IMG/VR virus record: IMGVR_UViG_3300032331_000813
Coordinates: 20,466-84,465 of that record
DNA from: a virus
Length of the DNA stretch: 64,000 nucleotides
Direction: 5' to 3' (one strand)
In this document: in pieces, positions 35,587-61,753 of the stretch
Numbering within the stretch: the first letter of the stretch is position 1
How the letters are laid out: each line of letters opens with the position of its first letter
Notes under the pieces: generated by a model
Told to the model about the DNA's origin: nothing
Database searches by the model: none
Seen by the model: only the letters and a program-made list of their open reading frames with translations
Translations under genes and position numbers: made by a program

Positions 35587-36529
35587 TATTATTGATGTTG
35601 CAGATTTAGATTGCATCTATCTAAGCTATGATGAGCCACAGAAGGAAGAGTTTTGGCTTAAGATTAAAAATATGATACCGTGGGCTAAACGTGTAGATGG
35701 AGTTAAAGGCTCTGACGCTGCACATAAAGCAGCAGGCAAAGCTAGCGACACGGAACGATTCATTCTAATTGATGGTGATAATATGCCCGAAGAAAGTTTC
35801 TTCAATATGCAATTAGATTTTAGCAATAAGGATTCTAAATTTAAATTGGCTCAGTTTCGTTGGAAAGCAGTTAACAGCATCAATGGATTACGTTATGGTA
35901 ATGGTGGTATGAGTAGTTGGACAAAGACTTATGTTAGTGAAATGAAAACCCACGAAAATCAAACTGAAGGGGATATAACACGTATAGCTGATTTCTGCAT
36001 GGATAGTAAAGATAATCTATATTGGGCTATGTATGATTGCTATTCAACTACGTACCCAAACTATACTCCGTTTCAAGCATGGCGTGCTGGATTCCGTGAA
36101 GGTGTAAAGATGTGTTTAGACCGCGGCGCCAAACCTACAGTAGACCAATTCAAAGAAACTGTTGCTAGCCGTAACTTAAACAACTTAACTATCTGGCATA
36201 ATGTGGGTGCAGATGTTGAAAATGGATTGTGGGCTATATACGGAGCGAGACTCGGTACATACATGACCATGCTAACTGATTGGGAACACACAGATGTTCA
36301 GTGGTTTGATAACTATATAATAATGTGGGAAGAACAAGAATATAATAGAGATCCAGAGCGTGAAGCAACATTATTAGGTGCAGCATTACATGATAAACTT
36401 GGATTGCCAATGTGTACTTTGGGAAAAGAACAAAGTAAGTTTTTTAAACGTCATTACAATGCCGACAAACACAACCTAGGTCCACTAGTAACAGAGATGG
36501 ATGTAATTCGCAAGATAGAAGGTTGGTAA
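35573..36529 (+). CDS. GT-like protein related to the C-terminus of the 1457-residue repeat protein
   Basis: The 318-residue product has a RVDGVKGSDAAHKAAGKAS segment (about 40-60) followed by RFILIDGDNMPEESF, where DGDN sits like the DxD site of GT-A enzymes. The pair R-DG-V-G...AAH also occurs in GT25-like and procollagen-type transferases. The C-terminal domain of the repeat protein at 53484 has the same arrangement (RVDGVQGRVNSQHAAANAS, then NPVNGLKYGHQ, compare NSINGLRYGNGG), so the two are homologous. Here the acidic motif is intact, so this copy is the better candidate for activity. The acceptor is unknown. Confidence 0.6.
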   Translation: MNSNDIIDVADLDCIYLSYDEPQKEEFWLKIKNMIPWAKRVDGVKGSDAAHKAAGKASDTERFILIDGDNMPEESFFNMQLDFSNKDSKFKLAQFRWKAVNSINGLRYGNGGMSSWTKTYVSEMKTHENQTEGDITRIADFCMDSKDNLYWAMYDCYSTTYPNYTPFQAWRAGFREGVKMCLDRGAKPTVDQFKETVASRNLNNLTIWHNVGADVENGLWAIYGARLGTYMTMLTDWEHTDVQWFDNYIIMWEEQEYNRDPEREATLLGAALHDKLGLPMCTLGKEQSKFFKRHYNADKHNLGPLVTEMDVIRKIEGW

Positions 36530-37923
36530 TGAGCAATGAACAACAACGAATAAAAGACATTAAGATCAAGATTGAAAATGAAGTAGGTTCTACTTTCTGT
36601 CTTGCCAAATGGCATCATGTCACGATGTATTTGCAATCAGGTGAAACACATAGTTGTTATCATCCCAAACCGCATAAAATCCCTTTAAGGGAACTTAAAG
36701 ACAATCCGTCTGCATTACATAATACTTTAGAAAAAAAGACTGAACGTAAGTTAATGCTTGAAGGGGAGAAACCTTCGGGATGCCAGTACTGCTGGAACAT
36801 TGAAGCAATGGGCCCAGACTATATTAGTGACCGTCATATTCGTAATGCATCTATCTTTACAGAAGAACGATATGAGCAAACTGTTAAGGGACCTTGGGAT
36901 CAGAATATTAACCCAGAATACTTAGAGATTAATTTTGGTAACGAATGTAACTTCAAATGCGGTTACTGTCACCCAAAGTATAGTACAAGTTTCTACAATG
37001 AAATAAAAACTAACGGTCCTGTTAATACAGTAAAGAATCATCGTTGCGACATTGATTGGATGAGACTATATCAGCGTGAAGAAGAAAATCCGTACGTTGA
37101 TGCATTTTGGCAATGGTGGCCTGAATTACGCAAGACATTGAACATCATGCGGGTTACAGGTGGCGAGCCTACTATGCACACTAGCACTTGGAAATTATTG
37201 AAAGAGATTGACCAAGACCCTATGCCTTGGTTAGAGTTGAACATCAATAGCAATTTAGGCACTAAAACTAGTCTAGTTGAAAAACTAAGTGATAGTGTAA
37301 AGACGCTATGTGATGATAAAAAGATTCGTGCTTTCAAGTTATTCACTAGCATGGATACATGGGGTCAACGTGCTGAATATATTCGCACTGGTTTAGATTT
37401 AGAATTATGGGAAAAAAATTTCCACACCTACTTAACTAGAACTGATAGCCCAATCACGTTTATGATTACCTTCAACATTTTTAGTGTGACTACCTTTAAG
37501 TCATTGCTAGAGAAAATGTTAGAATGGAGAAATCAATATGGATGGTATGATGATATAAAAAGCCATCGTGTTCGTTTTGATACACCTTATTTGCGTGATC
37601 CAATTCAATACGATATGAATATTCTTCCTAAAGAAGAATTCATGCCTTACATGCACGAATCATTAAAATTTATGGAAGACAACTTAGACGATAATGCTAG
37701 CAATAAGTTTACTACGGTAGAATATGAAAAGTTCAAGCGTGTAGTAGATTACATGGCAGAGACAGTTTATCCAGAAAACAAACTGGTTGAAGGTCGCAGA
37801 GATTTTTATAATTGGTTCAACGAATTAGATGAGCGTAGGGATACAGATATGTTATCTATTTTTCCAGAGTATATAAAGTTCTATAGATTATGTCAAGAAG
37901 CTAATCAGTTAAATCCATTATGA
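36529..37923 (+). CDS. Radical SAM enzyme with N-terminal twitch domain (copy 1)
   Basis: The protein has 464 residues from the ATG at 36529, which overlaps the preceding stop as TAATG; an in-frame TTG six bases upstream is less likely. Radical SAM signature CNFKCGYC at C140, C144 and C147, followed by VTGGEPTMH, the GGE SAM-binding motif. The N-terminal 90 residues hold C24, C43 and the pair C85/C88 (GCQYC), fitting an auxiliary Fe-S twitch domain placed before the core, as in N-terminal-twitch radical SAM proteins. The substrate is unknown. It is the first and most divergent of four such genes in a row and may act on a sugar or peptide. Confidence 0.8.
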   Translation: MSNEQQRIKDIKIKIENEVGSTFCLAKWHHVTMYLQSGETHSCYHPKPHKIPLRELKDNPSALHNTLEKKTERKLMLEGEKPSGCQYCWNIEAMGPDYISDRHIRNASIFTEERYEQTVKGPWDQNINPEYLEINFGNECNFKCGYCHPKYSTSFYNEIKTNGPVNTVKNHRCDIDWMRLYQREEENPYVDAFWQWWPELRKTLNIMRVTGGEPTMHTSTWKLLKEIDQDPMPWLELNINSNLGTKTSLVEKLSDSVKTLCDDKKIRAFKLFTSMDTWGQRAEYIRTGLDLELWEKNFHTYLTRTDSPITFMITFNIFSVTTFKSLLEKMLEWRNQYGWYDDIKSHRVRFDTPYLRDPIQYDMNILPKEEFMPYMHESLKFMEDNLDDNASNKFTTVEYEKFKRVVDYMAETVYPENKLVEGRRDFYNWFNELDERRDTDMLSIFPEYIKFYRLCQEANQLNPL

Positions 37924-39152
37924 ATAAAAACTATAGATTAAATGAAAGTAAAACTTTTTGTATGGCACCTTGGGTGCATTTGCATACTAATCCCAGTGGA
38001 GTTGCTGCCCCGTGCTGCATAGCACAATCATGCTCAACCTTCGACGGTGTAGGAAATGCAAAATCTCAATCATTAATGGAGTTAGTAAATTCTCCTAAAA
38101 TGAAACAATTGCGTTTAGACATGCTAAACGATGTTAAAAATCCTGAATGTGCAACTTGTCACAATATAGAAGAATATGAAATACAAAGTAGTAGAGAGCA
38201 TTTAAATATAGATTGGGGAAAAACATACTATGATGAATGTATTGAAGATACACTATCAGATGGTTCTTTAACTGAATTTAAAATGCGATACTTTGATATC
38301 AGATTTAGTAATATTTGTAATTTCAAATGTAGGTCTTGTGGTTCCTCATTCAGTAGTCAATGGGAACAAGAAGATTTAAAAAATAACTTAGTATATGCTA
38401 GAACGATACCAAAAAATGATAATAAAAATTTCTTAAATGATGTAGTTGATCAAATTCAATATATGGATCAAGCATACTTTGCAGGCGGTGAGCCATTGAT
38501 AACAGAAGAACATTATATCTTGTTGGAAGAAATGATCAAACAAGATAAAACAAATATAAAATTACGGTATAATACTAACTTGAGTAATTTAAAGTTTAAA
38601 GACAAAGATTTACTTGGGTTGTGGAAGCATTTTAAAAATGAAATAATGATCTCAGCTAGTATAGACCACTATGGTGAACGTGCAGAATATATACGGCACG
38701 GAACTGATTGGGCAACAGTTGAAAATAATTTCAAAATAATACGTAAATTGCCATATCTGAAGTTACAAATGCATTCTGTATTGAGTGTGTTTAACATGTT
38801 AACTATGCATGAATTTTATCAATATTTGGTTGACAACCAGTTATATGATAAGAAAAATTACCCTAACACAATATATAATTTAGATATTCCCGAAATATTA
38901 TCATGTAATATATTGCCACCGGAATACAAAGAAAAAGGAAAGTATAGTTTAGAAATGGTTGTATCAATGCTATCAAAGCAAAAATTTAGAAAATATCATA
39001 TTGATATGATAAAAAACGTAATTCCAAAAGCGTTAGCTAATGACACATGGGAAGATAAGAAAGAAGAATTTAGAAACGAGATACATAGATTAGATAAAAT
39101 ACGAGGGGAAGATTTTAGTAAAACTTTTCCAGAACTAGCAGGATTACTATGA
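37920..39152 (+). CDS. Radical SAM enzyme with N-terminal twitch domain (copy 2)
   Basis: A 410-residue protein. The twitch segment opens KTFCMAPWVHLHTNPSG (C14), then PCC (C32, C33) and ECATC (C77, C80). The radical SAM triad is C133, C137 and C140 (NICNFKCRSC), followed by FAGGEPLITEEHY. A later YNTNLSNLKFKD strand and SIDHYGERAEYIRHG stretch are shared with copies 3 and 4. It overlaps both neighbours by ATGA. These enzymes use SAM and [4Fe-4S] clusters to make a 5'-deoxyadenosyl radical; the auxiliary cluster may bind substrate. The substrate is not evident from sequence. Confidence 0.82.
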   Translation: MNKNYRLNESKTFCMAPWVHLHTNPSGVAAPCCIAQSCSTFDGVGNAKSQSLMELVNSPKMKQLRLDMLNDVKNPECATCHNIEEYEIQSSREHLNIDWGKTYYDECIEDTLSDGSLTEFKMRYFDIRFSNICNFKCRSCGSSFSSQWEQEDLKNNLVYARTIPKNDNKNFLNDVVDQIQYMDQAYFAGGEPLITEEHYILLEEMIKQDKTNIKLRYNTNLSNLKFKDKDLLGLWKHFKNEIMISASIDHYGERAEYIRHGTDWATVENNFKIIRKLPYLKLQMHSVLSVFNMLTMHEFYQYLVDNQLYDKKNYPNTIYNLDIPEILSCNILPPEYKEKGKYSLEMVVSMLSKQKFRKYHIDMIKNVIPKALANDTWEDKKEEFRNEIHRLDKIRGEDFSKTFPELAGLL

Positions 39153-40375
39153 ACAAAGAATATCTATTAAACGAAAGTAAAACTTTCTGTATGTTTCCCT
39201 GGGTGCATTTAAATGTTACTCCTAAAGGAGATATCTACCCCTGCTGTAGTAATGACTATACAGTACCATTTGGTAACACTAAACAAACTAGCCTTAAAGA
39301 AGCATTTAACAACGAACAGATGAAGCAATTGCGTTTGGATATGTTGAATGACAAACCAAACAAGATATGTAACTTCTGCTACAAGCACGAAGAAGCAGGG
39401 CCTCATAGTTTTAGAAACTATAGCAAAGAACACTTTGCTAAACACTTTGATACAACTGTTCCTACTACACAAGCTGACGGAACTGTTCCTGACTTTAAGA
39501 TGCATTACTTTGACATACGTTTTAGTAACATATGCAATTTCAAATGCAGAACATGTGGAAGTGAATTCAGTAGTCAATGGGGAGCAGAGATGCGAGCCAA
39601 TCATGATCCAAAGCATCCTATCGTTATCCATGCTGATGAAAAGGGTAATCTATTACGTGAAGTATTAGAACAAGTAGAACATATTGACCTAGCATACTTT
39701 GCAGGCGGTGAACCAACGCTAACAGAAGAACATTATCTGATGTTAGAAGAAATGATTCGCAAAGGTCGCACAGACATTACACTACGTTACAATACAAACG
39801 CTAGTAATATCAAGTTTAAAGACTATGACTTGCTAGACATGTGGAAACACTTTAAAAAGATTGAGTTAAGTTGTAGTATTGACCATTATGGAGAACGTGC
39901 AGAATGGTTGCGTCATGGAACTGACTGGGGATTGGTTGAAAGTAATCTACTAAAGTTTCGTGATTTAGATTATGTTTCGTTTCAATTGAATACAGTATTC
40001 TCAATATTCAATTACTCAACTATTGGTGAATTTTATTCTTATCTAAAAAGTAAGGGTATTATTCGCAGAGATGATTGGTATCATAGTCTCTACTTAGCAG
40101 TTCATCCTAGCTATTATAGTGGTAAGAGTTTACCCAAAGAACTAAAAGTCGAAGCAGCAAGTAAAGCATTAGCCTGGGCACAGAATAACGAGGGCGACGG
40201 TACATCATTGTCCCGCTTAGTAACCGATGCGGTTAATTTTGCCAAAGAAGATGATTCTTGGGGAGCAAATAAACAAACTTTTATGTTACACACAGGGTCA
40301 AGTGATAGGATACGCGGGGAAAGTTTATGGAAAACATTCCCTGAATTAAATAAATTACAAGAGTTGATGGAGTAA
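39149..40375 (+). CDS. Radical SAM enzyme with N-terminal twitch domain (copy 3)
   Basis: The 408-residue product is the closest paralogue of the preceding gene, with identical layout: twitch cysteines C14, C32, C33, C74 and C77 (KTFCMFPWVHLN, YPCC, ICNFC); radical SAM triad C129, C133 and C136; then FAGGEPTLTEEHY and IDHYGERAEWLRHGTDWG. Conserved order with diverged ends suggests duplication followed by change in substrate or step. It starts with ATGA overlap. Confidence 0.82.
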   Translation: MNKEYLLNESKTFCMFPWVHLNVTPKGDIYPCCSNDYTVPFGNTKQTSLKEAFNNEQMKQLRLDMLNDKPNKICNFCYKHEEAGPHSFRNYSKEHFAKHFDTTVPTTQADGTVPDFKMHYFDIRFSNICNFKCRTCGSEFSSQWGAEMRANHDPKHPIVIHADEKGNLLREVLEQVEHIDLAYFAGGEPTLTEEHYLMLEEMIRKGRTDITLRYNTNASNIKFKDYDLLDMWKHFKKIELSCSIDHYGERAEWLRHGTDWGLVESNLLKFRDLDYVSFQLNTVFSIFNYSTIGEFYSYLKSKGIIRRDDWYHSLYLAVHPSYYSGKSLPKELKVEAASKALAWAQNNEGDGTSLSRLVTDAVNFAKEDDSWGANKQTFMLHTGSSDRIRGESLWKTFPELNKLQELME

Positions 40376-40377
40376 AA

Positions 40378-41655
40378 ATGCAAGACCCAATCGTAGTAGA
40401 AAATTTAGTTAAACATGGTAAACACTTTTGTGTATTACCTTGGGTACATTTTCATTCATGGCCCGATGGTAAGGTAATGCCTTGTTGCGTTGCGGATAGC
40501 AATATGCCCGTAGCATCAATAAAAAACAATGAATCTATTATTCAGATGATGAATAGTGAAGATTACAAGAAGATGCGTACTAAAATGCTGAACGATGAAC
40601 CAGTCGAAGCCTGCAAGCGTTGTTATGATTTAGAAATTATGGGCACATGGACAATGCGTCAAAGTCATAACAAGCGCAGGGGACTTGAGTATGTAGATAT
40701 GATTTCAAAAAACACAACCAAAGATGGTAGTCTAACTGAATTCAAAATGAAGTATATGGACTTGCGTTTTAGTAACATGTGTAATATGAAATGTCGTAGT
40801 TGTGGTCCTGGATGCAGTAGCCTTTGGGCACAAGAGTTTGTGGACGAGAGGGGTGTTGACGTTTACGAGGAATATTTCAAAACTAGAAAAGTTGTAATCA
40901 ACGCTTCTGAAGAAATGGGTTTTATGGACAAACTAAAGCCTTATCTTAAAGACGTACTAGAAGTTTATTTTGCAGGCGGGGAGATTATTATCACTCCTGA
41001 ACACTATGAATGTTTAGATTATTGGATTGAAAATGGCTTAACTAAACAAGTTGAGTTGACTTATACTACTAACTTTAGTTCATTGAAATACAAAGATAAA
41101 GACTTGATTGGGTATTGGAAGAAGTTTCCGCAATTAAAAATATGGGCTAGTTTAGATGCTGAAGGTAAAGTAGCAGAGTCTATCCGCAAGGGAACAGACT
41201 GGGAGCGCATCGTTAAAAATATGAAAACTCTTAAAGAACAAGTTCCTCATGCACAGTTTCAAATTACTCCAACTATAAGTATATGGAATGTTTTTGATTT
41301 CCCTGACTTCTTTGATTACATGGTAGATGAAGGGTTTATCGATGTTCGTAGCAGCAGTCCTAGATTTAACCTAGCAACTAATCCATGGTATGCAAATATT
41401 ATGATATTACCAGTATCGGTTAAGCGTAGACTGATTGAATTATATCGGGTATATGCTGAAAGATATGAAAATGTAAATCAAGACATTGCCAATGGATTTA
41501 GAATGATTATATATAACTTAAATGTAGGTGATGAGAACAAAGGCGGTATATTAGAGTTTAAAAAATTCAATGATGAATTAGATGAATTTAGAAATGAAAA
41601 ACTAGAAGATATTGTTACGGGACTTAAAGAGGTATATGCATGGGCAGAAAGCTAA
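40378..41655 (+). CDS. Radical SAM enzyme with N-terminal twitch domain (copy 4)
   Basis: A 425-residue protein. Twitch cysteines C18 (KHFCVLPWVHFHSW), C36/C37 (MPCC) and C79/C82 (ACKRC). Radical SAM triad C135, C139 and C142 (NMCNMKCRSC), then YFAGGEIIITPEHYE; the usual GGEP reads GGEI here, a small departure from the motif. SLDAEGKVAESIRKGTDWE replaces the HYGERAEYIRHG stretch of copies 2 and 3. It is 2 nt downstream of copy 3 and overlaps the next gene by 16 nt. Function as for the other copies: unknown radical chemistry, likely in the same pathway. Confidence 0.8.
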   Translation: MQDPIVVENLVKHGKHFCVLPWVHFHSWPDGKVMPCCVADSNMPVASIKNNESIIQMMNSEDYKKMRTKMLNDEPVEACKRCYDLEIMGTWTMRQSHNKRRGLEYVDMISKNTTKDGSLTEFKMKYMDLRFSNMCNMKCRSCGPGCSSLWAQEFVDERGVDVYEEYFKTRKVVINASEEMGFMDKLKPYLKDVLEVYFAGGEIIITPEHYECLDYWIENGLTKQVELTYTTNFSSLKYKDKDLIGYWKKFPQLKIWASLDAEGKVAESIRKGTDWERIVKNMKTLKEQVPHAQFQITPTISIWNVFDFPDFFDYMVDEGFIDVRSSSPRFNLATNPWYANIMILPVSVKRRLIELYRVYAERYENVNQDIANGFRMIIYNLNVGDENKGGILEFKKFNDELDEFRNEKLEDIVTGLKEVYAWAES

Positions 41656-42611
41656 TAGCTATTGAAGCCCCAGAACCATATTTGGCAATTACGTGGCAAG
41701 TTAACAATTACTGTAATTTTAAATGCAGTTATTGTAATCCGGGCAATTGGGGCGGGACTGATGTAAATGATGGCAACACCGATTTATACATCAAAAATTT
41801 AGAAACGATAATCAATCGTTACAAAGATGTAGGCTATAAAAACTTTAAGTTTTTCTTTAGTGGTGGAGAACCTACTGCATGGCGCAACTTCATACCAATT
41901 TGTGAATGGTTATACAATGAGTTACCACACGCTACATTAGCAGTTAATACAAACTTAAGTCGTCCATTGAAATGGTGGGAAAAGAATCATCACTTGTTTG
42001 ACGATGTGGTTGCTAGTTTTCACGTAGAGTTTGCAGATAAACAACGTTATGAAGAAAATAGTATATTCTTATGTGACAAGGTAAACTACCTAGCTACTAA
42101 AATGCTATTGCATGAAGAAAAGTTTTGGGAAGTAGTTGAGTTCGGTAAGCATTTGAAAACAGTAATGCCAAACTACTTCTTAGAGTGGACTCCGTTGTTT
42201 GATGAGATGAGTGTAAATGCAGGTCCATGGTCATATAAAGATTCAACTAAAACTCAATTTATAAATGACTGTACCTCTGAACATCATCAGTCTAAACCAA
42301 AACCAAACAAAAGAACAAATTTCACCGTCAGCTATAATAAATATGATGACAATCATACTGAAGTATGTAATAGTAATGAAGTAATTGTTGCTGGTAATAA
42401 TTTCTTTAAGGGTTGGCAATGTAATGTAGGTGATGCAATTTTTATTAATCCAACGGGAGAAATGAGTTTAGCAAGTTGCGGAATGGGCGGTAACGTAGGG
42501 CATATATTGAAAGATATAAAACGTGTTGGTCCCAAACAAATAATGTGTGCCAAAGAACATTGTCATTGTGGCACCGATATTATTATACCTAAGTATTTAA
42601 AAAATGAATAA
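41640..42611 (+). CDS. Radical SAM enzyme without N-terminal twitch domain
   Basis: The product has 323 residues. The SAM-cluster motif comes early at C25, C29 and C32 (NYCNFKCSYC), with FFFSGGEPTAW as the SAM-binding motif. The C-terminal part has several cysteines (WQCNVGD, LASCGMGG, IMCAKEHCHCG), consistent with a C-terminal auxiliary cluster of SPASM/twitch type. This is the opposite domain order to the four genes upstream, so it is a separate subfamily. It overlaps the upstream gene by 16 nt and the downstream gene by 8. The substrate is unknown. Confidence 0.8.
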   Translation: MGRKLIAIEAPEPYLAITWQVNNYCNFKCSYCNPGNWGGTDVNDGNTDLYIKNLETIINRYKDVGYKNFKFFFSGGEPTAWRNFIPICEWLYNELPHATLAVNTNLSRPLKWWEKNHHLFDDVVASFHVEFADKQRYEENSIFLCDKVNYLATKMLLHEEKFWEVVEFGKHLKTVMPNYFLEWTPLFDEMSVNAGPWSYKDSTKTQFINDCTSEHHQSKPKPNKRTNFTVSYNKYDDNHTEVCNSNEVIVAGNNFFKGWQCNVGDAIFINPTGEMSLASCGMGGNVGHILKDIKRVGPKQIMCAKEHCHCGTDIIIPKYLKNE

Positions 42612-53483: not shown

Positions 53484-56400
53484 ATGCGAGATGTATTTTA
53501 TTACGGTAATAAACCCAACGTTCACCCAAGAGAAAAATTTGCAACTTCAATAGAAGATGCTAGACAACAATGCACCACTGAACATTTTTGGATAATCAAC
53601 GAATTTTGTGATTATCGAAATTTTGATTGGGAATGGGAATTTGATTTCTTACCTGACCATGAAGTTTGGGCAGAAGAACACAATAATGTATGGCCTAGTG
53701 TTCATCAAAAAGATAGTGGTACATGGTTGTGTCCACAAACAAAAAGTGAAATAATAATATATCGTGCTGATGTTGAACCATTACCTAGAAAAAAAATAAT
53801 TTCTAATGAATGGAAATTTATAGATAAAGTAGATACAACTAAATTTGACTTTAGCTGGCACCCTGACCCTTCATCACCTCCATACGTATATGTATGGGGA
53901 AATAAATGGAATCCAGTAGAATTGCAACCGGCACTAGAGTATCATACTCCTAATGCTACTACTAGAAAATATATAGATCAAGTAGTTGAATTGTTACCTA
54001 ATGAGTATTTTGTAGAAATACAACCAATTGACAAGTCTAAGTTTGACATGACTTGGAGACCCAATCCACTCGATCCTCCCTTCATTTACAAGTGGGGAAA
54101 TAAATTTAATCCAGTTGAAATGGAAACTGCATTAGAATATCATGCGCCCGGCGCAACTGAAGTAAAATACATGAAAACTCCTATTGAGATTATCACGCAA
54201 TGGGACAGTTGGGAAAACGTTGAAAATATAGATAAAGAAAGTTTTGATTGGACATGGAGACCTGACCCAAGAGAACCTCCCTTCATATATCATTTTGGTA
54301 CTCAATGGCAAAAGACAAATGGTCCTAAATACACAGTTAAAGGCGCCACTAAAATTAAGTATATAAGCGAAATAAAAGCTAAAATAATGCCTAATAGAGA
54401 AAATTGGACCGTTCCTGATAATATAGATGTTACTGGATTTGACTTTAGCTGGCATCCCGATGCAACGAGTCCTCCTTACACATATAGATTTCCTACTCAA
54501 TGGGCGATGAGTGGTGGACCTACTTACACAGTACCAGGCGCTACTGAAGTAAAATATGTTGACGTAATAAAAGCAAAAGCATTACCCGATAAAACCAATT
54601 GGGATGTACCATCTTATATTGATAGTGACAGTTTTGACTTTAGCTGGCATCCATATATAGAAGATGAACCATTCATATATCAGTTTGGTACTCAATGGCA
54701 AAAGACAGGTGGTCCTCAGTATGTGCATCCTAACATACCTAGAATGGCATCAGGTAAGCCTATTGGTCAAGTAAAATACATTGATACACGTATTATAAAA
54801 GCAAAACGCTTACCTAGTAAAAAAGGATTCATGCCACCTGAAAACTTTAAAGAAATAGTAGACTTTGATTATTCATGGCACCCAGACGATACAGAACCAC
54901 CATACATATATCATTTTGGTACACAGCATCAAAAGACAGGTGGACCAAGATACTTTGTTGAAGGTGCGACTGAAATAAAATATGTAGATAAACCAAGAGC
55001 CGCAGTTCTTCCAAAAGATAATACTATCAATTGGGAAATACCAAATAACATAGATGTTAGTGAGTTTGATTTTAGTTGGCACCCTGATGAGAGAGATGAA
55101 CCATATATCTATCAATTTGGCACACAACATCAAAAGACAGGTGGACCAAAGTACATTGTCCCTAAAGCTACTGAAATAAAATATGTAGAAAATTCAAAAG
55201 CAAAAAGTTTATCTAATAAAGAAAATTGGGTTATGCCAGATGATTTAGATATTGCAGACTTTGATTTTAGTTGGCACCCTGACGATACAGAAGAACCTTT
55301 CTTGTATCATTTTGGTACACAATGGTCAGAACATGGAGGACCTACGTATGTAAGACCGGGTGCAATTGTCGGTGTAACTGCCACTAAGTATATTAATCCT
55401 AGAGTACTCAAGGCGACTGTAGCGCCTGATAAAAAGTATTGGATAATACCAGATGATATAGACAGCGATAGTTTTGACTTTAGCTGGCATCCTCATCCAA
55501 ATAGTCCACCGTTCATATATCAATTTGGTACACAGTGGCAAAAGACAGGTGGACCTCAGTATATACATCCTGATATAACTAAAACGGCAACAGGAAAACC
55601 CAATGGTCAAATTAGTTATGTTGATACACGAGTTCTCTCATCTACTAAACTGCCATTAAAAACATATTGGGTGATTCCTGATAATATTGATGTTAGTGAA
55701 TTTGATTTTAGTTGGCATCCTGATGACACAAGTCCACCTACTACCTATCAGTTTGGTACATTATTAGATAAAGAAGATGGTCCTAAATATGTTCATCCTA
55801 ACACTATGGATGATGTAGTTGTATATCTAGAAAGAATCGCACCTAAGCAAGTTATAGTAGAGACAGTAGTTCATACTGATTTTCCTAAATATATCGTAAC
55901 TACCACACTTGAAGATTTGATTGAAGAACATTCTAACGAATTGTTTTGGGCATTAAATCCTGATTTAGACTATAGTGAGTTTGATTTTAATTGGAGACCT
56001 AGTATTGAACAGTCGCAATATCTACATGCGTTTGGCTCACCTGAGAATATCAATACTCAAACATACTTTGTTAATGCAGCAGCATGGTTAAAAGGATTTA
56101 AAGATATCAATTATGTTGAAGATAAAACACTCAATGTAAAAGTTAATATTGATATGTTCTTTGTTGACAGAAGCAATAATGAATCACAGTCACGGTTTGA
56201 AAAACTAAAGAATAAATTCCCTAACATACAAAAAACTCGCTACTTAAATAGTTGGGTAGAAACTATCAATCGTTGTATTAATCGTGCTAGTAGTAATTTG
56301 TGTTGGATATTGAATAGTGAGTTAGACTATAGTGATTTTGATTTCAACTATTATCCTAATCCATGGCAGATGAAAATGGTACATGTGTTTGGTACTCAAT

Positions 56401-57857
56401 GGAGTCACTGGGGCACTACCTATATGGTTAACCGAGATACGTTTGCTGATGATACAAAATTCATAAAGATAATTGAACATCTTTCTAATCTTAACTTTGT
56501 TAAGGATAGGAGAGCAAAGGCAACTAATATTCTATATGATACTATCTACATAGACCATGGCAATAAAGATATGTCTAGATTACAAAAAGAAGGAAAATTA
56601 GTAATAAAATATCAGAACAGTTATATCACTACATTCCAAAAGATGTTAGATATGCTACCTATTAAAAAAGAACATTATGTATGGGTAGTTAGTTCTATAT
56701 GTGATTATGCCGAATTTGATTTTACTTATATATGCGATCCTTTTGCAAAAGATCAATTGCATGTTTTCCCTAGTGATAGACAAAAATTTGGTGATACGTT
56801 CTTAGTTGATGTTAACAAATTACGTGAACTAATTGAAGATATGAACTCATTAGAAGATTACGTAAAAATTAACTATAATCAAAATCAACGTGTAACTAGA
56901 CTTACTCCACCTGTTATAGTTACTGAAGGGGATACACATTTATCTAGCATAAACACAGAGTTTAATTTTCCTTATGCAGTATTTGTTACAGAAGATAATA
57001 GAAATATAAATGTAGTTGACAGTGAACCAATGAGTTTATGGAGTCCTGAATCTAAAAACATTCAAGTAACCAGTATAGGTGGAACACGAATTGTGGTACC
57101 CAAAGAAGCTAAAGATTTCATAGAGACACAGTTATATGATTATCCTTACATTAAATCTAATAATAGATTATCGCAATCAATTCCATTGGACATTGTATTC
57201 TTTAGTAACGGTGAAGGTGCAGCAGATAAAAATTATGCACATTTATTAGAGATAACAAAAGGATTACCAAACAGACTAACAAGAGTAGATGGGGTGCAAG
57301 GTAGAGTAAACAGTCAACATGCGGCTGCTAATGCTAGTAAAACATCATGGTACTTCTTAGTTAATGGGAAACTGAAAGTAAGTCAAAAATTTGACTTCAA
57401 TTGGCAACCCGATAGATTACAATTACCTAAGCATTATATATTTCAAGCTACTAATCCAGTCAATGGATTAAAGTATGGACATCAAGCTATTGTTGCTAAT
57501 AACAAACGATTGACTTTAGAAAATTATGGTAGCGGATTAGATTTTACTATGGATAGTGACCATGAGATTGTCAAAATAAACAGTGGTATGGCAATATTCA
57601 ATACTAGTGAATGGGACACATGGCGTACTGCGTTCCGTGAATGCATTAAACTTAAAGCATCGGGCACTGAAGAAAATAAAGAACGATTAGAATTTTGGTT
57701 AACAGTTGCTATGGGTGACTTTGCCCAATATAGTATCGAAGGTGCTCAAGATGCTGTAGAATACTATGAAGAAGTTAATGGTGACTTTAATAAACTAAGA
57801 TTAAGCTATGACTGGGCTTGGTTAAAAACTTACTATGAGACTAAATATACGTTATGA
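53484..57857 (+). CDS. 1457-residue repeat protein with C-terminal GT-like domain
   Basis: Residues about 120-780 hold ten units of roughly 65 residues. Each has an FDFSWHPD core, then PPYIYxFGTQWQKTGGPxY and GATEVKYVD. A degenerate unit lies before them and three more after (FDFNWRP, FDFNYYP, FDFTYIC), together with LNPDLDYSEF-like linkers. Residues about 1230-1430 form a domain homologous to the protein at 35573 (RVDGVQGRVNSQHAAANAS; NPVNGLKYGHQ), but with VNGK where that protein has the acidic DGDN, so catalysis by this copy is doubtful. It may be a scaffold or glycan-binding repeat array. Start ATG at 53484 is 8 nt after the carbamoyltransferase stop. Confidence 0.75.
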   Translation: MRDVFYYGNKPNVHPREKFATSIEDARQQCTTEHFWIINEFCDYRNFDWEWEFDFLPDHEVWAEEHNNVWPSVHQKDSGTWLCPQTKSEIIIYRADVEPLPRKKIISNEWKFIDKVDTTKFDFSWHPDPSSPPYVYVWGNKWNPVELQPALEYHTPNATTRKYIDQVVELLPNEYFVEIQPIDKSKFDMTWRPNPLDPPFIYKWGNKFNPVEMETALEYHAPGATEVKYMKTPIEIITQWDSWENVENIDKESFDWTWRPDPREPPFIYHFGTQWQKTNGPKYTVKGATKIKYISEIKAKIMPNRENWTVPDNIDVTGFDFSWHPDATSPPYTYRFPTQWAMSGGPTYTVPGATEVKYVDVIKAKALPDKTNWDVPSYIDSDSFDFSWHPYIEDEPFIYQFGTQWQKTGGPQYVHPNIPRMASGKPIGQVKYIDTRIIKAKRLPSKKGFMPPENFKEIVDFDYSWHPDDTEPPYIYHFGTQHQKTGGPRYFVEGATEIKYVDKPRAAVLPKDNTINWEIPNNIDVSEFDFSWHPDERDEPYIYQFGTQHQKTGGPKYIVPKATEIKYVENSKAKSLSNKENWVMPDDLDIADFDFSWHPDDTEEPFLYHFGTQWSEHGGPTYVRPGAIVGVTATKYINPRVLKATVAPDKKYWIIPDDIDSDSFDFSWHPHPNSPPFIYQFGTQWQKTGGPQYIHPDITKTATGKPNGQISYVDTRVLSSTKLPLKTYWVIPDNIDVSEFDFSWHPDDTSPPTTYQFGTLLDKEDGPKYVHPNTMDDVVVYLERIAPKQVIVETVVHTDFPKYIVTTTLEDLIEEHSNELFWALNPDLDYSEFDFNWRPSIEQSQYLHAFGSPENINTQTYFVNAAAWLKGFKDINYVEDKTLNVKVNIDMFFVDRSNNESQSRFEKLKNKFPNIQKTRYLNSWVETINRCINRASSNLCWILNSELDYSDFDFNYYPNPWQMKMVHVFGTQWSHWGTTYMVNRDTFADDTKFIKIIEHLSNLNFVKDRRAKATNILYDTIYIDHGNKDMSRLQKEGKLVIKYQNSYITTFQKMLDMLPIKKEHYVWVVSSICDYAEFDFTYICDPFAKDQLHVFPSDRQKFGDTFLVDVNKLRELIEDMNSLEDYVKINYNQNQRVTRLTPPVIVTEGDTHLSSINTEFNFPYAVFVTEDNRNINVVDSEPMSLWSPESKNIQVTSIGGTRIVVPKEAKDFIETQLYDYPYIKSNNRLSQSIPLDIVFFSNGEGAADKNYAHLLEITKGLPNRLTRVDGVQGRVNSQHAAANASKTSWYFLVNGKLKVSQKFDFNWQPDRLQLPKHYIFQATNPVNGLKYGHQAIVANNKRLTLENYGSGLDFTMDSDHEIVKINSGMAIFNTSEWDTWRTAFRECIKLKASGTEENKERLEFWLTVAMGDFAQYSIEGAQDAVEYYEEVNGDFNKLRLSYDWAWLKTYYETKYTL
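53840..55820 (+). repeat. Ten-unit protein repeat with FDFSWHPD core
   Basis: Ten units, each about 190-240 nt, encode the FD(F/W/M/Y)xWxP core with PP(Y/F)xYxFGTQWQKTGGP. Neighbouring units differ by substitutions and by an insertion of a TGKPxGQxxYxDTR segment in two units (near 54750 and 55590), so they arose by unequal duplication and then diverged. Confidence 0.75.
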
Positions 57858-58477: not shown

Positions 58478-58708
58478 ATGAGACAAGTAGTAATAGATGA
58501 ATTAACAGAAAGAATAAAAAACTTTGAAAAAGTGGCAAAACCGCGTGATGTGGGAACCGGTATGACTGGTTCTTTTAACATGTTTAATTATACCATTCAA
58601 AGTGGAACTGCCATGACACAGGAAGAATTTGATTCATGTACATATGACGATTGGTTACGAGAAGAACATATTCGTGTGTATAAAAAAGTCAATAACCTTC
58701 TTGGATGA
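58478..58708 (+). CDS. Conserved phage hypothetical protein
   Basis: A 76-residue protein with a strong GGAGG site 7 nt before its ATG. It starts with a helix (VVIDELTERIKNFEKVA) and ends with EEFDSCTYDDWLREEHIRVYKKVNNLL, giving an all-helical acidic/basic protein. It is the last gene of the long operon and ends about 20 nt before the tmRNA. Function unknown. Confidence 0.65.
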   Translation: MRQVVIDELTERIKNFEKVAKPRDVGTGMTGSFNMFNYTIQSGTAMTQEEFDSCTYDDWLREEHIRVYKKVNNLLG

Positions 58709-58711
58709 TAG

Positions 58712-58719
58712 ACTAAATA
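58712..58719 (+). promoter_or_regulatory. Octamer ACTAAATA just before the permuted tmRNA gene
   Basis: ACTAAATA begins 4 nt after the upstream stop. The acceptor piece begins shortly after, so the octamer could start its transcript. The same octamer precedes the porin and pstS. Confidence 0.35.
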
Positions 58720-58721
58720 TA

Positions 58722-58789
58722 AGTTATTGCTGTATGAAGCAAAGAGAAAAGTGTTCTGGACGCGGGTTCGACTCCCGCCAGGTCCACCA
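58722..58789 (+). ncRNA. ssrA: tmRNA acceptor piece (3' half of ssrA, encoded first)
   Basis: T-arm GCGGG, loop TTCGACT and CCCGC at 58762-58778, then CAGGTCC (58779-58785) and an encoded ACCA end at 58786-58789. CAGGTCC pairs over 7 bp with GGGCCTG at 58886-58892, the start of the coding piece. TGTTCT (58752-58757) pairs with AGAGCA (58906-58911) and TGCTGT (58728-58733) with ACAGCA (58928-58933), two parts of helix P2. The segment GGACGCGGGTTC before the T-loop matches bacterial tmRNA 3' ends. This is the 3' half placed before the 5' half, as in two-piece tmRNA. The exact 5' end is not certain. Confidence 0.85.
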
Positions 58790-58881
58790 TAAAGTATTTT
58801 ATTAGCTCAGTTGTGTAGAGCGTCCGCAGAATTCTAGATAAGCGGTTGGTCGTTGGTTCGAGGCCAACATAGAATACTTTA
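58790..58881 (+). other. tmRNA intervening segment forming one 13-bp-capped tRNA-like fold
   Basis: TAAAGTATTTTAT (58790-58802) pairs with ATAGAATACTTTA (58869-58881) over 13 bp with one U-G pair, enclosing the D arm and T arm of a tRNA. The helix begins at the base right after the tmRNA CCA, and four bases separate its end from the start of the coding piece. In known two-piece tmRNAs this intervening part is removed. Confidence 0.7.
58796..58876 (+). tRNA. tRNA-like gene with enlarged anticodon loop inside the tmRNA intervening segment
   Basis: Acceptor stem ATTTTAT/ATAGAAT (58796-58802 with 58869-58875), D arm GCTC...GAGC (58805-58821), T arm GTTGG, loop TTCGAGG, CCAAC (58852-58868), discriminator A and no encoded CCA. 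The anticodon stem reduces to CCGC/GCGG around a 14-base loop instead of 7, so an anticodon cannot be read safely; GAT (Ile) or TCT (Arg) are possible triplets. It could be a tRNA with an inserted loop, or a tRNA turned into a processing signal. It lies wholly between the two tmRNA pieces. Confidence 0.5.
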
Positions 58882-58885
58882 TAAT

Positions 58886-59048
58886 GGGCCTGCCCTGGTT
58901 TCGACAGAGCAAAGAGTAACAGAGTGGACAGCACGGTAGGCGATGACCGTTAATCAAGCAAATTTCATAACTGCAAACGATGAGTTATATTCTTTAGCCG
59001 CTTGAGGCTAAGGTGCAGTAGGACTTACTGTATAAAAGAAACAACCAG
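58886..59048 (+). ncRNA. ssrA: tmRNA coding piece (5' half of ssrA) with tag ANDELYSLAA
   Basis: It begins GGGCCTG and holds the tmRNA hallmark TGGTTTCGACAG (58896-58907). The tag frame starts at GCA 58973 and ends at TGA 59003-59005, giving ANDELYSLAA, an LAA-type degradation tag. TTAGCC/GGCTAA (58994-58999 with 59006-59011) encloses the stop codon like pseudoknot 2, CAGTA/TACTG (59016-59020 with 59026-59030) is a further hairpin, and CGGT/ACCG (58934-58949) fits pseudoknot 1. The RNA frees stalled ribosomes and tags the nascent protein. The 3' end is estimated at the terminator. Confidence 0.88.
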
Positions 59049-59070
59049 AACCCGCTTCGGCGGGTTTCTT
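59049..59070 (+). terminator. Rho-independent terminator after tmRNA
   Basis: AACCCGC, TTCG loop, GCGGGTT (59049-59066), then TTCTT. It closes the tmRNA transcript. Confidence 0.8.
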
Positions 59071-59177
59071 ATTAGTAGTAACACTAATAAAGATTCATAC
59101 TTTTCACTATGTTATTTAGGTAATGGCAACATATATAAACGATATATACAATGTCAATTTGATATAGGAGAACAATT

Positions 59178-59252
59178 ATGAAATGGACTACACCTCAAGC
59201 AAATGATATGCGTTTTGGTTTTGAAATTACCATGTATATTGCTAATCGTTAA
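59178..59252 (+). CDS. pqqA: PqqA-like coenzyme PQQ precursor peptide
   Basis: A 24-residue peptide starting MKWTTP and ending MRFGFEITMYIANR. PqqA peptides are 22-29 residues and hold the pair Glu and Tyr spaced E-x-x-x-Y, here Glu16 and Tyr20 in FGFEITMY. The radical SAM enzyme PqqE crosslinks these two and the rest is trimmed off to give PQQ. TAGGAG (59165-59170) serves as ribosome binding site; a strong terminator follows, so it is a single-gene unit, as is common for pqqA. No pqqB-E gene lies in this window, so the peptide would rely on host PqqB-E. A phage-borne copy suggests support of PQQ-dependent alcohol oxidation. Confidence 0.82.
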   Translation: MKWTTPQANDMRFGFEITMYIANR

Positions 59253-59266
59253 TTCACATATTAACC

Positions 59267-59293
59267 AAAAAGGTTGCTTCGGCAACCTTTTTT
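59267..59293 (+). terminator. Strong rho-independent terminator after pqqA
   Basis: An 11-bp stem AAAAAGGTTGC/GCAACCTTTTT around a TTCG loop, ending in a T run. It isolates pqqA from the cytochrome gene. Confidence 0.88.
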
Positions 59294-59325: not shown

Positions 59326-59634
59326 ATGAAAAAGTTAATAACATCGGCAATACTAATCATGTCTTTGACTACTGCATATGCAGTTGACCCCAAAGCACTA
59401 GCACAAAGTAAAAGTTGTTTAGCTTGTCACGCAATTGATTCTAAGCTAGTTGGACCAGCATATAAAGATGTTGCTGCAAAATATAAAAACGATCCGCTTG
59501 CTGAAGATAGATTGAGTAAAAAAATTATGTCAGGTGGTGGTGGAGTTTGGGGAACAATGCCCATGCCAGCTAATAGTCAAGTTAATCCAAATGAAGCAAA
59601 AATTCTAGCAAAATGGATTTTAAGCATAAAATAA
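59326..59634 (+). CDS. Periplasmic cytochrome c, c551/c552 type
   Basis: The 102-residue protein has a Sec signal peptide (KKLITSAILIMSLTTAYA, cleaved about residue 19). The haem site is CLACH at residues 31-35, with His35 as proximal ligand and a Met in MPMPAN (Met80 most likely) as distal ligand. Mature length of about 83 fits class I cytochromes of the c551/c552 group, which carry electrons between dehydrogenases and oxidases or peroxidases. AAGGAG precedes the ATG. Beside pqqA, it may accept electrons from PQQ-dependent alcohol oxidation, though not necessarily directly. Haem attachment needs host Ccm machinery. Host origin is likely. Confidence 0.88.
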   Translation: MKKLITSAILIMSLTTAYAVDPKALAQSKSCLACHAIDSKLVGPAYKDVAAKYKNDPLAEDRLSKKIMSGGGGVWGTMPMPANSQVNPNEAKILAKWILSIK

Positions 59635-59762: not shown

Positions 59763-60650
59763 ATGAAGAAAATTGCAATATCTGCATTACTAGTTGGTCT
59801 TATGGGAATGGCTCAGGCTGACGTTAGTATTTACGGAAAAGTCCGTGAATATCAAGAATCTTACACGCTTGGAACTGCATCTGCATTAACTCGCCTGACT
59901 AATGATTCAAGTCGGTTTGGTATCAAGGCTAACCAAGATGTTGGTAGCGGCATGACTGTTAGTGGTGTTATTGAAACTGGCGTAGCAATGGATGCTCCTA
60001 GTGCTACTACATTAGGTGACCGTACTGCTATCGTTAGTTTAAGCAATAGCTTTGGTACATTAAGTGCTGGTCGTGATAAACACGCAGTTACAAAAGCATT
60101 GGATAACTTTGATGTACTAGAAAATACATACGGTACAATCGTAGGTTCTATCCACTCTGCACAAGGTTCTCGTGTACAGAACGCAGTATTTTTAACTACT
60201 GCACCAATGGCAGGATTTACTGGTACTTATCACATGGCTAACAGTGAAACAGCAGGTACTACTAATGTACAAGCCGGTAGTATTAACTATTCGCTTGGTG
60301 CATTAAGTGCTACTGTAGCAAAGTATGATGACAGCGTTTCTAGTACAAGTACTACTGCTGGTGTTAAGTACACTATAGCAAGCACAGGCACAACATTGTT
60401 TGGTTTGTACTCTGATGACAAAGTTTCAAATGTAAGCACGACAGGCAAGAGCATTGGTGTTCGTCAAGCTGTTTCTCCTCAATTAGCACTATTAGCTAAC
60501 TATGGTGAAAACAGCAACGGCACTACTGGTAAAGCAGTTGGGGTAGCATATGCTATGAATAAGGCTTTGACATTCCATGCACGTTATAGCTACATTGATA
60601 CAACAACCGATGTTACTCAATATGGCGTTGGTGTAGAATTCAATTTCTAA
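59763..60650 (+). CDS. Outer membrane porin, beta-proteobacterial type
   Basis: The 295-residue protein starts with a Sec signal (MKKIAISALLVGLMGMAQA), then VSIYGKV, the usual first strand of Gram-negative porin_4 proteins. It continues with SSRFGIKANQDVG, SLSNSFGTLSAGRDKHA in loop 3 position, and ends VGVEFNF with the terminal Phe needed for Bam recognition. It is shorter than typical host porins (340-380), so some loops are trimmed. A phage-coded porin could boost uptake of small solutes or swap the cell's receptor surface. It has its own sigma-70-type promoter and terminator. Confidence 0.85.
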   Translation: MKKIAISALLVGLMGMAQADVSIYGKVREYQESYTLGTASALTRLTNDSSRFGIKANQDVGSGMTVSGVIETGVAMDAPSATTLGDRTAIVSLSNSFGTLSAGRDKHAVTKALDNFDVLENTYGTIVGSIHSAQGSRVQNAVFLTTAPMAGFTGTYHMANSETAGTTNVQAGSINYSLGALSATVAKYDDSVSSTSTTAGVKYTIASTGTTLFGLYSDDKVSNVSTTGKSIGVRQAVSPQLALLANYGENSNGTTGKAVGVAYAMNKALTFHARYSYIDTTTDVTQYGVGVEFNF

Positions 60651-60726: not shown

Positions 60727-60757
60727 TAAATATTTGTGTAACACACAAGGAGATTAC

Positions 60758-61753
60758 ATGAAAAAACTGTTTACAACATTATTGGCAGTGATAGCATTCG
60801 CTGCATCAGCACAAGAAATTACGGGAGCCGGAGCAACATTTCCGGCTCCGTTGTATGCAAAGTGGGCAAGTGAATATAACAAGGCCACTAACATCAAGGT
60901 CAACTATCAATCAGTTGGTTCCGGCGCAGGTATCAAGCAAATTGAAGCAAAGACTGTAACATTTGGTGCAAGTGATATGCCACTTACAGATGATAAATTA
61001 AAAGAAATTGGACTATTTCAGTTCCCTACAGCAATCGGTGGAGTTGTTCCGGTGATCAATGTCAAAGGTATTGAGCCAGGTCAACTACGTTTGACTGGTG
61101 CAGTCATAGCTGAAATCTTTTTAGGCAAGATTGTTCGTTGGGATGATGCTGCTATCAAAGCATTAAACCCGTCACTAGCTTTACCTGATCAAGCCATCAC
61201 AGTGGTTCGCCGTGCAGATGGAAGTGGTACAACATTCATCTGGACCAACTACTTGAGCAAAGTAAGCAAAGAGTTCAAAGACACCATTGGTGAAGGTACT
61301 GCGGTCAGTTGGAAAGTAGGCGCAGGCGGCAAAGGTAATGAAGGCGTTTCTGCTATGGTAAGACAACTTCCAGGAGCATTGGGCTATGTTGAATATGCTT
61401 ATGTAAAACAAGCCAAGATGAACTGGGTCAATGTGCAAAACAGTGCAGGTAATTGGGTAGCACCTACAGAAGATGCATTCAAAGCAGCCGCTGCTAATGC
61501 TGATTGGAACAAGAGTTACTATCAGATATTGACTAATCAAGCAGGCAAAGAAGCATGGCCAATATCAGGTGCTACATTCATTCTTGTTTATATCAAACCA
61601 GGTGATGTAGTTGCATCTAAAACTGCTATGACATTCTTTGATTGGGCATTTAGCAATGGTGACAAATCAGCAGATGATTTAGACTATGTGGCACTTCCGC
61701 CAGCAGTCAAAGCTAAGATTCGTGCAGATTGGAAACAATTAGGCTTGTTTTAA
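60758..61753 (+). CDS. pstS: Phosphate-binding periplasmic protein PstS
   Basis: Start ATG at 60758 behind AAGGAG; an upstream in-frame TTG at 60734 is rejected because the signal peptide begins at MKKLFTTLLAVIAFAASAQ. The 331-residue protein has GAGATFPAPLY near residue 23, GSGAGIKQI, GASDMPL near 70, RADGSGTTFIWTNYL near 150, and GGKGNEGVS near 195. These are the phosphate-contact loops of PstS. Residues align over the whole family length. It binds inorganic phosphate for the host PstCAB transporter. Phage pstS is known from cyanophages; a Pho box lies directly upstream. Confidence 0.93.
   Translation: MKKLFTTLLAVIAFAASAQEITGAGATFPAPLYAKWASEYNKATNIKVNYQSVGSGAGIKQIEAKTVTFGASDMPLTDDKLKEIGLFQFPTAIGGVVPVINVKGIEPGQLRLTGAVIAEIFLGKIVRWDDAAIKALNPSLALPDQAITVVRRADGSGTTFIWTNYLSKVSKEFKDTIGEGTAVSWKVGAGGKGNEGVSAMVRQLPGALGYVEYAYVKQAKMNWVNVQNSAGNWVAPTEDAFKAAAANADWNKSYYQILTNQAGKEAWPISGATFILVYIKPGDVVASKTAMTFFDWAFSNGDKSADDLDYVALPPAVKAKIRADWKQLGLF

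Follow-up and report, generated by a model that had tools for sequence, protein, structure and literature searches.

Background

Cyanophages carry single auxiliary genes of host origin, such as pstS and psbA, with which a host process stays supplied while infection proceeds. For the cofactor PQQ, the closest described case is the Lake Baikal phage population VP_266, a Methylophilaceae phage reported in 2020 with PqqA and a methanol dehydrogenase (PMC7678222); viral pqqA, pqqD and pqqE are also listed in a 2026 sediment study (PMC13188868). The Methylophilales phages considered below belong to several distinct viral groups (PMC10580990). Methylophilaceae themselves have 3-12 copies of pqqA, but the other pqq genes typically occur as one set (PMC4109929). 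According to work cited in PMC9851590, PqqE, together with PqqD, crosslinks the Glu and Tyr of known PqqA, and PqqB and PqqC take part in later steps; the same source reports a cell-free extract that turns added PqqA into PQQ at 70-80%. An earlier note on the DNA analyzed here knew of no phage with pqqA, which overlooked the 2020 publication; the phenomenon is nevertheless wider than that report, and its main interest lies in a breadth that has gone unnoticed.

The pqqA gene of the window

The window is the whole stretch of DNA that was analyzed, 64,000 nucleotides corresponding to bases 20466-84465 of an 84,465-base IMG/VR record. The features at and around pqqA are these (window coordinates):

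58677..59071, + strand: permuted two-piece tmRNA with the tag ANDELYSLAA (Rfam RF01850/RF04321, ARAGORN); upstream border of the slot that holds pqqA
59123..59152, + strand: candidate weak sigma-70-like promoter for pqqA (ATGGCA-18-TACAAT, score 9/12)
59165..59170, + strand: ribosome-binding site TAGGAG, 7 nt before the pqqA ATG; unchanged in the related contig L427
59178..59252, + strand: pqqA, 24 codons, ATG..TAA, peptide MKWTTPQANDMRFGFEITMYIANR (PF08042, TIGR02107, selection)
59267..59292, + strand: intrinsic terminator hairpin, 11-bp stem, TTCG loop, T-tract inside the 3' arm
59326..59634, + strand: predicted periplasmic class I cytochrome c, c551 type (PF00034; PDB 1dvv, E = 4.8e-27; phrog_36206)
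59763..60650, + strand: Gram-negative porin (PF13609, 3.9e-19); downstream border of the slot
60734..61753, + strand: PstS phosphate-binding protein (NF008171, 422 bits); likely start at an internal ATG (MKKLFTT)

The peptide, which the earlier note had taken to be PqqA, matches Pfam PF08042 (E = 2.1e-10, 40.8 bits, curated cut-off 21.1) and the NCBIfam equivalog TIGR02107 (E = 7.4e-10, 38.4 bits, cut-off 20), exceeding both curated cut-offs over the full short model, and window 59178-59252 is a genuine PqqA gene. PHROGs contains no family matching the 24-mer. Glu16 and Tyr20 lie within GFEITMY, and the Glu-x-x-x-Tyr pair of the GFE..MY core is present. These two residues, the 24-codon frame, the TAGGAG site and the 11-bp terminator had all been described in the earlier note, and all are borne out by the sequence of the window and by its folding: the terminator is AAAAAGGTTGC-TTCG-GCAACCTTTTT, with 11 complementary pairs, in a region that folds at -15.7 kcal/mol (z = -5.3). 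The stem of the L427 terminator differs in sequence (AAAAAGACAC-TTAG-GTGTCTTTTT), and this retention of the hairpin despite turnover of the stem is the mark of a selected terminator. Because the tmRNA ends in a terminator-like hairpin of its own (59048-59067), pqqA lies between two terminators and forms its own unit, in agreement with the one-gene unit proposed earlier. No pqqB-E adjoin it, and the complete pqqABCDE set is absent; the locus is PqqA and not a PQQ biosynthesis locus.

The putative promoter at 59123..59152 is only suggested by its sequence. It is nearly unchanged in L427, and the count of such sites in the region does not exceed that in shuffles. The T4-type late promoter TATAAATA is rarer than chance. 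The sequence CTAAATAT occurs at window 58713, 59713 and 60726: the first site is close to where the tmRNA gene begins, and the other two immediately precede porin and pstS. It is aligned upstream of porin in relatives and absent upstream of pqqA, and is a possible promoter element with a total count at chance level.

Viral location and the cargo slot

The record encodes a portal protein, a late sigma factor, SbcCD-like proteins and baseplate wedge proteins, and by the baseplate wedge protein (32-34% identity) it is closest, among named phages, to jumbo phages of 350-490 kb. The baseplate wedge genes are followed immediately by a single ORF of 7,756 aa (window 6053-29323). The window has in common with three viral contigs, L427, L428 and L429, the gene order 1457-aa repeat protein, small ORF, tmRNA, pqqA, porin, PstS and metallophosphoesterase. 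In these contigs (231, 212 and 303 kb) pqqA is located mid-contig, and their identity over 13 kb implies that they represent one phage population. The earlier note's claim that the gene is phage-borne is upheld by this tmRNA-pqqA-porin-PstS block in the middle of contigs of up to 303 kb, and the pqqA of the window is truly viral. Compared with the window, pqqA has three changes in 75 nt, two of them synonymous, in an independently assembled 303-kb contig, and against L427 it differs at three codons, two of them synonymous and the third Asn9Ser; the tmRNA tag and gene order of L427 are those of the window. This near-identity, together with the codon statistics given below, rules out a chance frame. 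In a sister phage (L443, 264 kb) the tmRNA and porin flanks are retained, but a 2OG-Fe(II) oxygenase lies between them (L443 4214-4885) and pqqA is missing. As the slot is filled by pqqA plus c551 in the window, by pqqA alone in L427 and by the oxygenase in L443, the tmRNA-porin interval is a cargo slot. Copies of PstS in sister jumbo phages are 83-94% identical. Two marks of an auxiliary metabolic gene are found: phage flanks mid-contig (212-303 kb), and homology to a host gene together with purifying selection. Most close jumbo relatives have no pqqA, an absence that may reflect fragmentation of the records; the gene would thus be dispensable there.

The repeat protein upstream of the slot (window 53484-57857, 1,457 aa) contains repeated FDFSWHPD...PP..Y.FGTQWQKTGGP units, and L427 and L443 have a relative of it ahead of the tmRNA. 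A permuted tmRNA is also found close upstream of, or at, pqqA in viral contigs L085 (68 nt), L077 and L055; pqqA adjoins large tRNA arrays in L004, L041 and L057, and tRNA-Leu in Melnitz.

The gene that follows pqqA in the window (59326-59634) encodes a signal peptide and a CLACH haem site (CxxCH), solved PDB c551 chains match it down to 4.8e-27, and judged by these sequence features it is a class I cytochrome c551. Its absence from the slot of L427, which bears pqqA, indicates that pqqA and the cytochrome are not an obligate pair. No match to it was found in annotated phage records; relatives of it are present in 21 viral contigs (one at 92% identity), and the c551-bearing contigs include L406. 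A search for it in the records of pqqA phages, run without a positive control, returned none, and a later search that began from the cytochrome found both genes in four of the 21, the T4-like contigs L420, L421, L423 and L424, in which c551 and pqqA lie within about 2 kb. The link between c551 and pqqA is suggestive only, because in 17 further viral records the cytochrome occurs and pqqA does not.

Host of the window phage

A Methylophilaceae host, put forward in the earlier note, fits the phage isolates described below but is not supported by sequence comparison for the window phage, of which PqqA and PstS are nearer to Comamonadaceae-type Burkholderiales. The window PqqA has the 24-residue MK..DMRFGFEITMYIANR form found in Comamonadaceae and other Burkholderiales, the Methylophilaceae form being MW..EMRFGFEVTMYVMNK, and the window PstS is 65-70% identical to that of Comamonadaceae-type genomes, with matches in Methylophilaceae, if any, at E ~ 1e-4 or worse. 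The tmRNA tag is ambiguous: ANDELYSLAA resembles ANDETYSLAA of Methylophilaceae more than ANDERFALAA of Comamonadaceae. With PqqA and PstS Comamonadaceae-like but the tag nearer to Methylophilaceae, the host can be placed no closer than Burkholderiales sensu lato. In the Comamonadaceae relatives pqqA adjoins pqqB-E, so that they could use a peptide supplied by a phage.

pqqA in phage isolates and viral contigs

The earlier note proposed that pqqA be sought in other phages and viromes, and it was found in nine Methylophilales phage records and at least 120 viral contigs. By tblastn against annotated phage genomes, matches were obtained in Melnitz (four records), P19250A, MEP301, MEP401, MEP402, Venkman and one spring podovirus. 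Of the ten matched records that are genuinely from phages, nine belong to Methylophilales phages, and all nine recovered carry pqqA; the taxonomy also lists MEP431-434, HIM624-A and Venkman EXVC038S outside the recovered set, and universality is not claimed. Among annotated phage records, pqqA tracks methylotroph hosts. Two records of 'Acinetobacter phage MD-2021a' also matched; the one inspected, L128 (CAKLQF020000010.1), is bacterial chromosome with pqqABCDE, ppk and fur, and this match was dropped. In the isolate genomes the gene is unannotated, labelled 'hypothetical protein' or overlain by an antisense ORF, and the open papers on these isolates, that on P19250A aside, do not mention PqqA. 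When a 5.7-kb region of MEP402 was compared at the DNA level with P19250A and with Melnitz, sharing was confined, among the listed matches, to pqqA.

A degenerate scan of viral contigs with the pattern W-x10-GFE[VI]TMY yielded at least 120 stretches, each in a short frame with an in-frame start 1-3 codons before the Trp and nearly all with a recognizable Shine-Dalgarno sequence ahead of them. At least 120 IMG/VR contigs have a stand-alone pqqA with no detectable pqqB-E: none of pqqB, C, D and E was found near pqqA at any of 126 viral loci by a test that was positive at 38 of 119 bacterial loci, and in the viral records searched in full no protein scored above the PqqE cut-off. This absence of pqqB-E rules out contamination of the viral contigs by host operons. 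Grouping the contigs with pqqA by the proteins they share, at 35% identity, was uninformative, as almost all of them were chained together. A third type of PqqA, MW.KP.YE.[IV]RLGFE[VI]TMYF, occurs in viral contigs L005, L013, L015, L021, L028, L040, L048 and L055. A PQQ methanol/alcohol dehydrogenase (608 bits, cut-off 480) accompanies pqqA in one 72-kb viral record (L053 / G061:34049-35731), and none was found in the other pqqA phage records tested, including the 84-kb record of the window; pqqA alone is the usual phage form.

At the codons left free by the search pattern, pN/pS among 117 distinct viral pqqA genes is 0.38 for all pairs and 0.13 for close pairs, ratios that are descriptive because gene pairs are not independent. 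Pro6 and Arg12 are invariant in 117/117 viral PqqA though the pattern left them free. Replacement of Glu16 or Tyr20 in relatives, which the earlier note said would speak against its reading, was sought in two whole-collection scans, and no viral relative with a first-base-changed codon at Glu16 (H-first) or Tyr20 (V-first) was found; the scans covered first-base changes, the other GNN (16) and TNN (20) codons lying outside them. These codon comparisons point to strong purifying selection on viral pqqA.

Predicted role of phage pqqA

The window is likely to derive from a jumbo myovirus of freshwater Burkholderiales whose functional stand-alone pqqA feeds the PQQ enzymes of the host and sustains PQQ-dependent dehydrogenases. 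We infer expression of pqqA, processing of its product by host enzymes and a metabolic effect, as follows. During infection, the 24-residue peptide would be made from a short transcript of its own, bound by host PqqD and crosslinked between Glu16 and Tyr20 by host PqqE, with host proteases, PqqB and PqqC completing the conversion. Each PQQ would use up one peptide, which makes pqqA the only substrate gene of the pathway, and a higher dose or a protected supply of the peptide would keep PQQ being made, so that PQQ-dependent periplasmic dehydrogenases of methanol or other alcohols would stay active. The adjacent cytochrome c551, a periplasmic electron carrier, could take electrons from the PQQ dehydrogenase chain. 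The absence of PqqB-E beside pqqA makes feeding of the host pathway the best explanation. Given that the substrate is consumed, that hosts multiply pqqA only (1-5 copies per genome were counted here in six Methylophilaceae genomes) and that extracts convert added PqqA, phage pqqA alone is best read as substrate supply, which also fits the link of the gene with methylotroph phages. PqqA may be limiting during infection. The earlier note went further and had the phage rescue methanol oxidation as host transcription fails, which is conjecture. PqqB and PqqC are treated as possible rate-limiting steps (PMC9851590), and overexpression of pqqABCDE gave only limited gains in work cited there, so that more PqqA need not mean more PQQ; a lytic infection may also be over before newly made PQQ could make a difference, which counts against substrate supply.

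Four other explanations of the gene were considered. That it is host DNA at a contig end, at an assembly chimera or prophage border, is suggested by its closeness to the contig end (about 5 kb), by the adjoining tmRNA, a common integration site, and by the host-like genes around it (cytochrome c, porin, PstS). The probability of this is negligible, because the same gene order is found mid-contig in records of 212, 231 and 303 kb, the 264-kb sister phage has a different gene between its tmRNA and porin, homologues are present in nine sequenced phage isolate records, and composition is phage-like, the GC3 of pqqA being 0.20 compared to 0.18-0.39 for phage genes, with neighbours likewise phage-like; the mid-contig synteny refutes a chimera, a prophage border and a host flank alike. 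A neutral, recently captured and unselected passenger would account for the patchy distribution of pqqA among close jumbo relatives, but is unlikely in view of the strong purifying selection on 117 distinct viral genes, the conserved Shine-Dalgarno sequences, the terminator hairpin kept despite sequence turnover and the repeated occurrence of the gene in unrelated phages.

The peptide might instead interfere with the host, either by imitating PqqA and titrating out PqqD/PqqE or the processing protease, or as a regulatory peptide; a peptide of 24 residues could serve as a competitor, and none of the phages tested has the remaining pathway genes. A decoy, however, would not need Glu16 and Tyr20, and both PQQ-forming residues are conserved with the remaining core, while the addition of a PQQ dehydrogenase by some phages argues for production of the cofactor; interference is accordingly a somewhat poorer prospect even than a neutral passenger. 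Processing of PqqA by the phage itself is brought to mind by several consecutive radical-SAM/SPASM genes at 36.5-43 kb of the same record. It is very improbable, since four of these encode NF033640 'twitch' radical-SAM proteins (309-373 bits, compared to 170), the sole match to PqqE scores 15.9 bits against a cut-off of 381, which rules out a phage-encoded PqqE, and the genes adjoin sugar-nucleotide and FkbM-type genes. The radical-SAM run (window 36523-42608), beside a sugar epimerase and an FkbM methyltransferase, is probably a glycan-modifying cluster of the phage.

Supply of the consumed peptide to the host pathway is therefore preferred, and pqqA is probably a common phage means of keeping the PQQ-dependent (e.g., methanol) oxidation of hosts running. 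A broader proposition has about an even chance of being correct: that stand-alone pqqA is near-universal and repeatedly acquired in phages of PQQ-dependent methylotrophs, unannotated because it has only 23-24 codons, and that phages control host PQQ by donating the consumed peptide alone, some pairing it with c551 for a periplasmic electron path. Methanol-oxidizing bacteria are abundant in lakes and coastal seas, and should it prove routine for their phages to supply the one consumable gene of the PQQ pathway, methanol turnover would be under the direct influence of viral infection. The idea lends itself to immediate testing, as Venkman and Melnitz, which are cultured with OM43 strain H5P1 as host, have pqqA. 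Phage metabolic genes below the length accepted by gene callers get missed.

Comparison with known systems

Like the window phage, VP_266 encodes a phage PqqA that was proposed to raise PQQ for methanol oxidation. VP_266 carries a methanol dehydrogenase and is assigned to Methylophilaceae, whereas the 84-kb record of the window has c551 adjoining pqqA and no PQQ dehydrogenase, and the window phage is a jumbo myovirus with Comamonadaceae-like PqqA and PstS. The extra chromosomal pqqA copies of Methylophilaceae (3-12 per genome, PMC4109929) resemble the window gene in being one-gene units apart from pqqBCDE, but the latter has phage composition and a conserved phage neighbourhood. Melnitz, Venkman, P19250A, MEP301, MEP401 and MEP402 share with the window a stand-alone pqqA, 23-24 codons long and preceded by a Shine-Dalgarno sequence of its own; they differ in that most encode the 23-residue Methylophilaceae-type peptide and in being smaller phages of other families. 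Cyanophage pstS and psbA (cyanophage PstS was among the database matches) and the pqqA of the window are alike host-derived single genes, but pqqA encodes the peptide substrate of a cofactor rather than an enzyme or binding protein.
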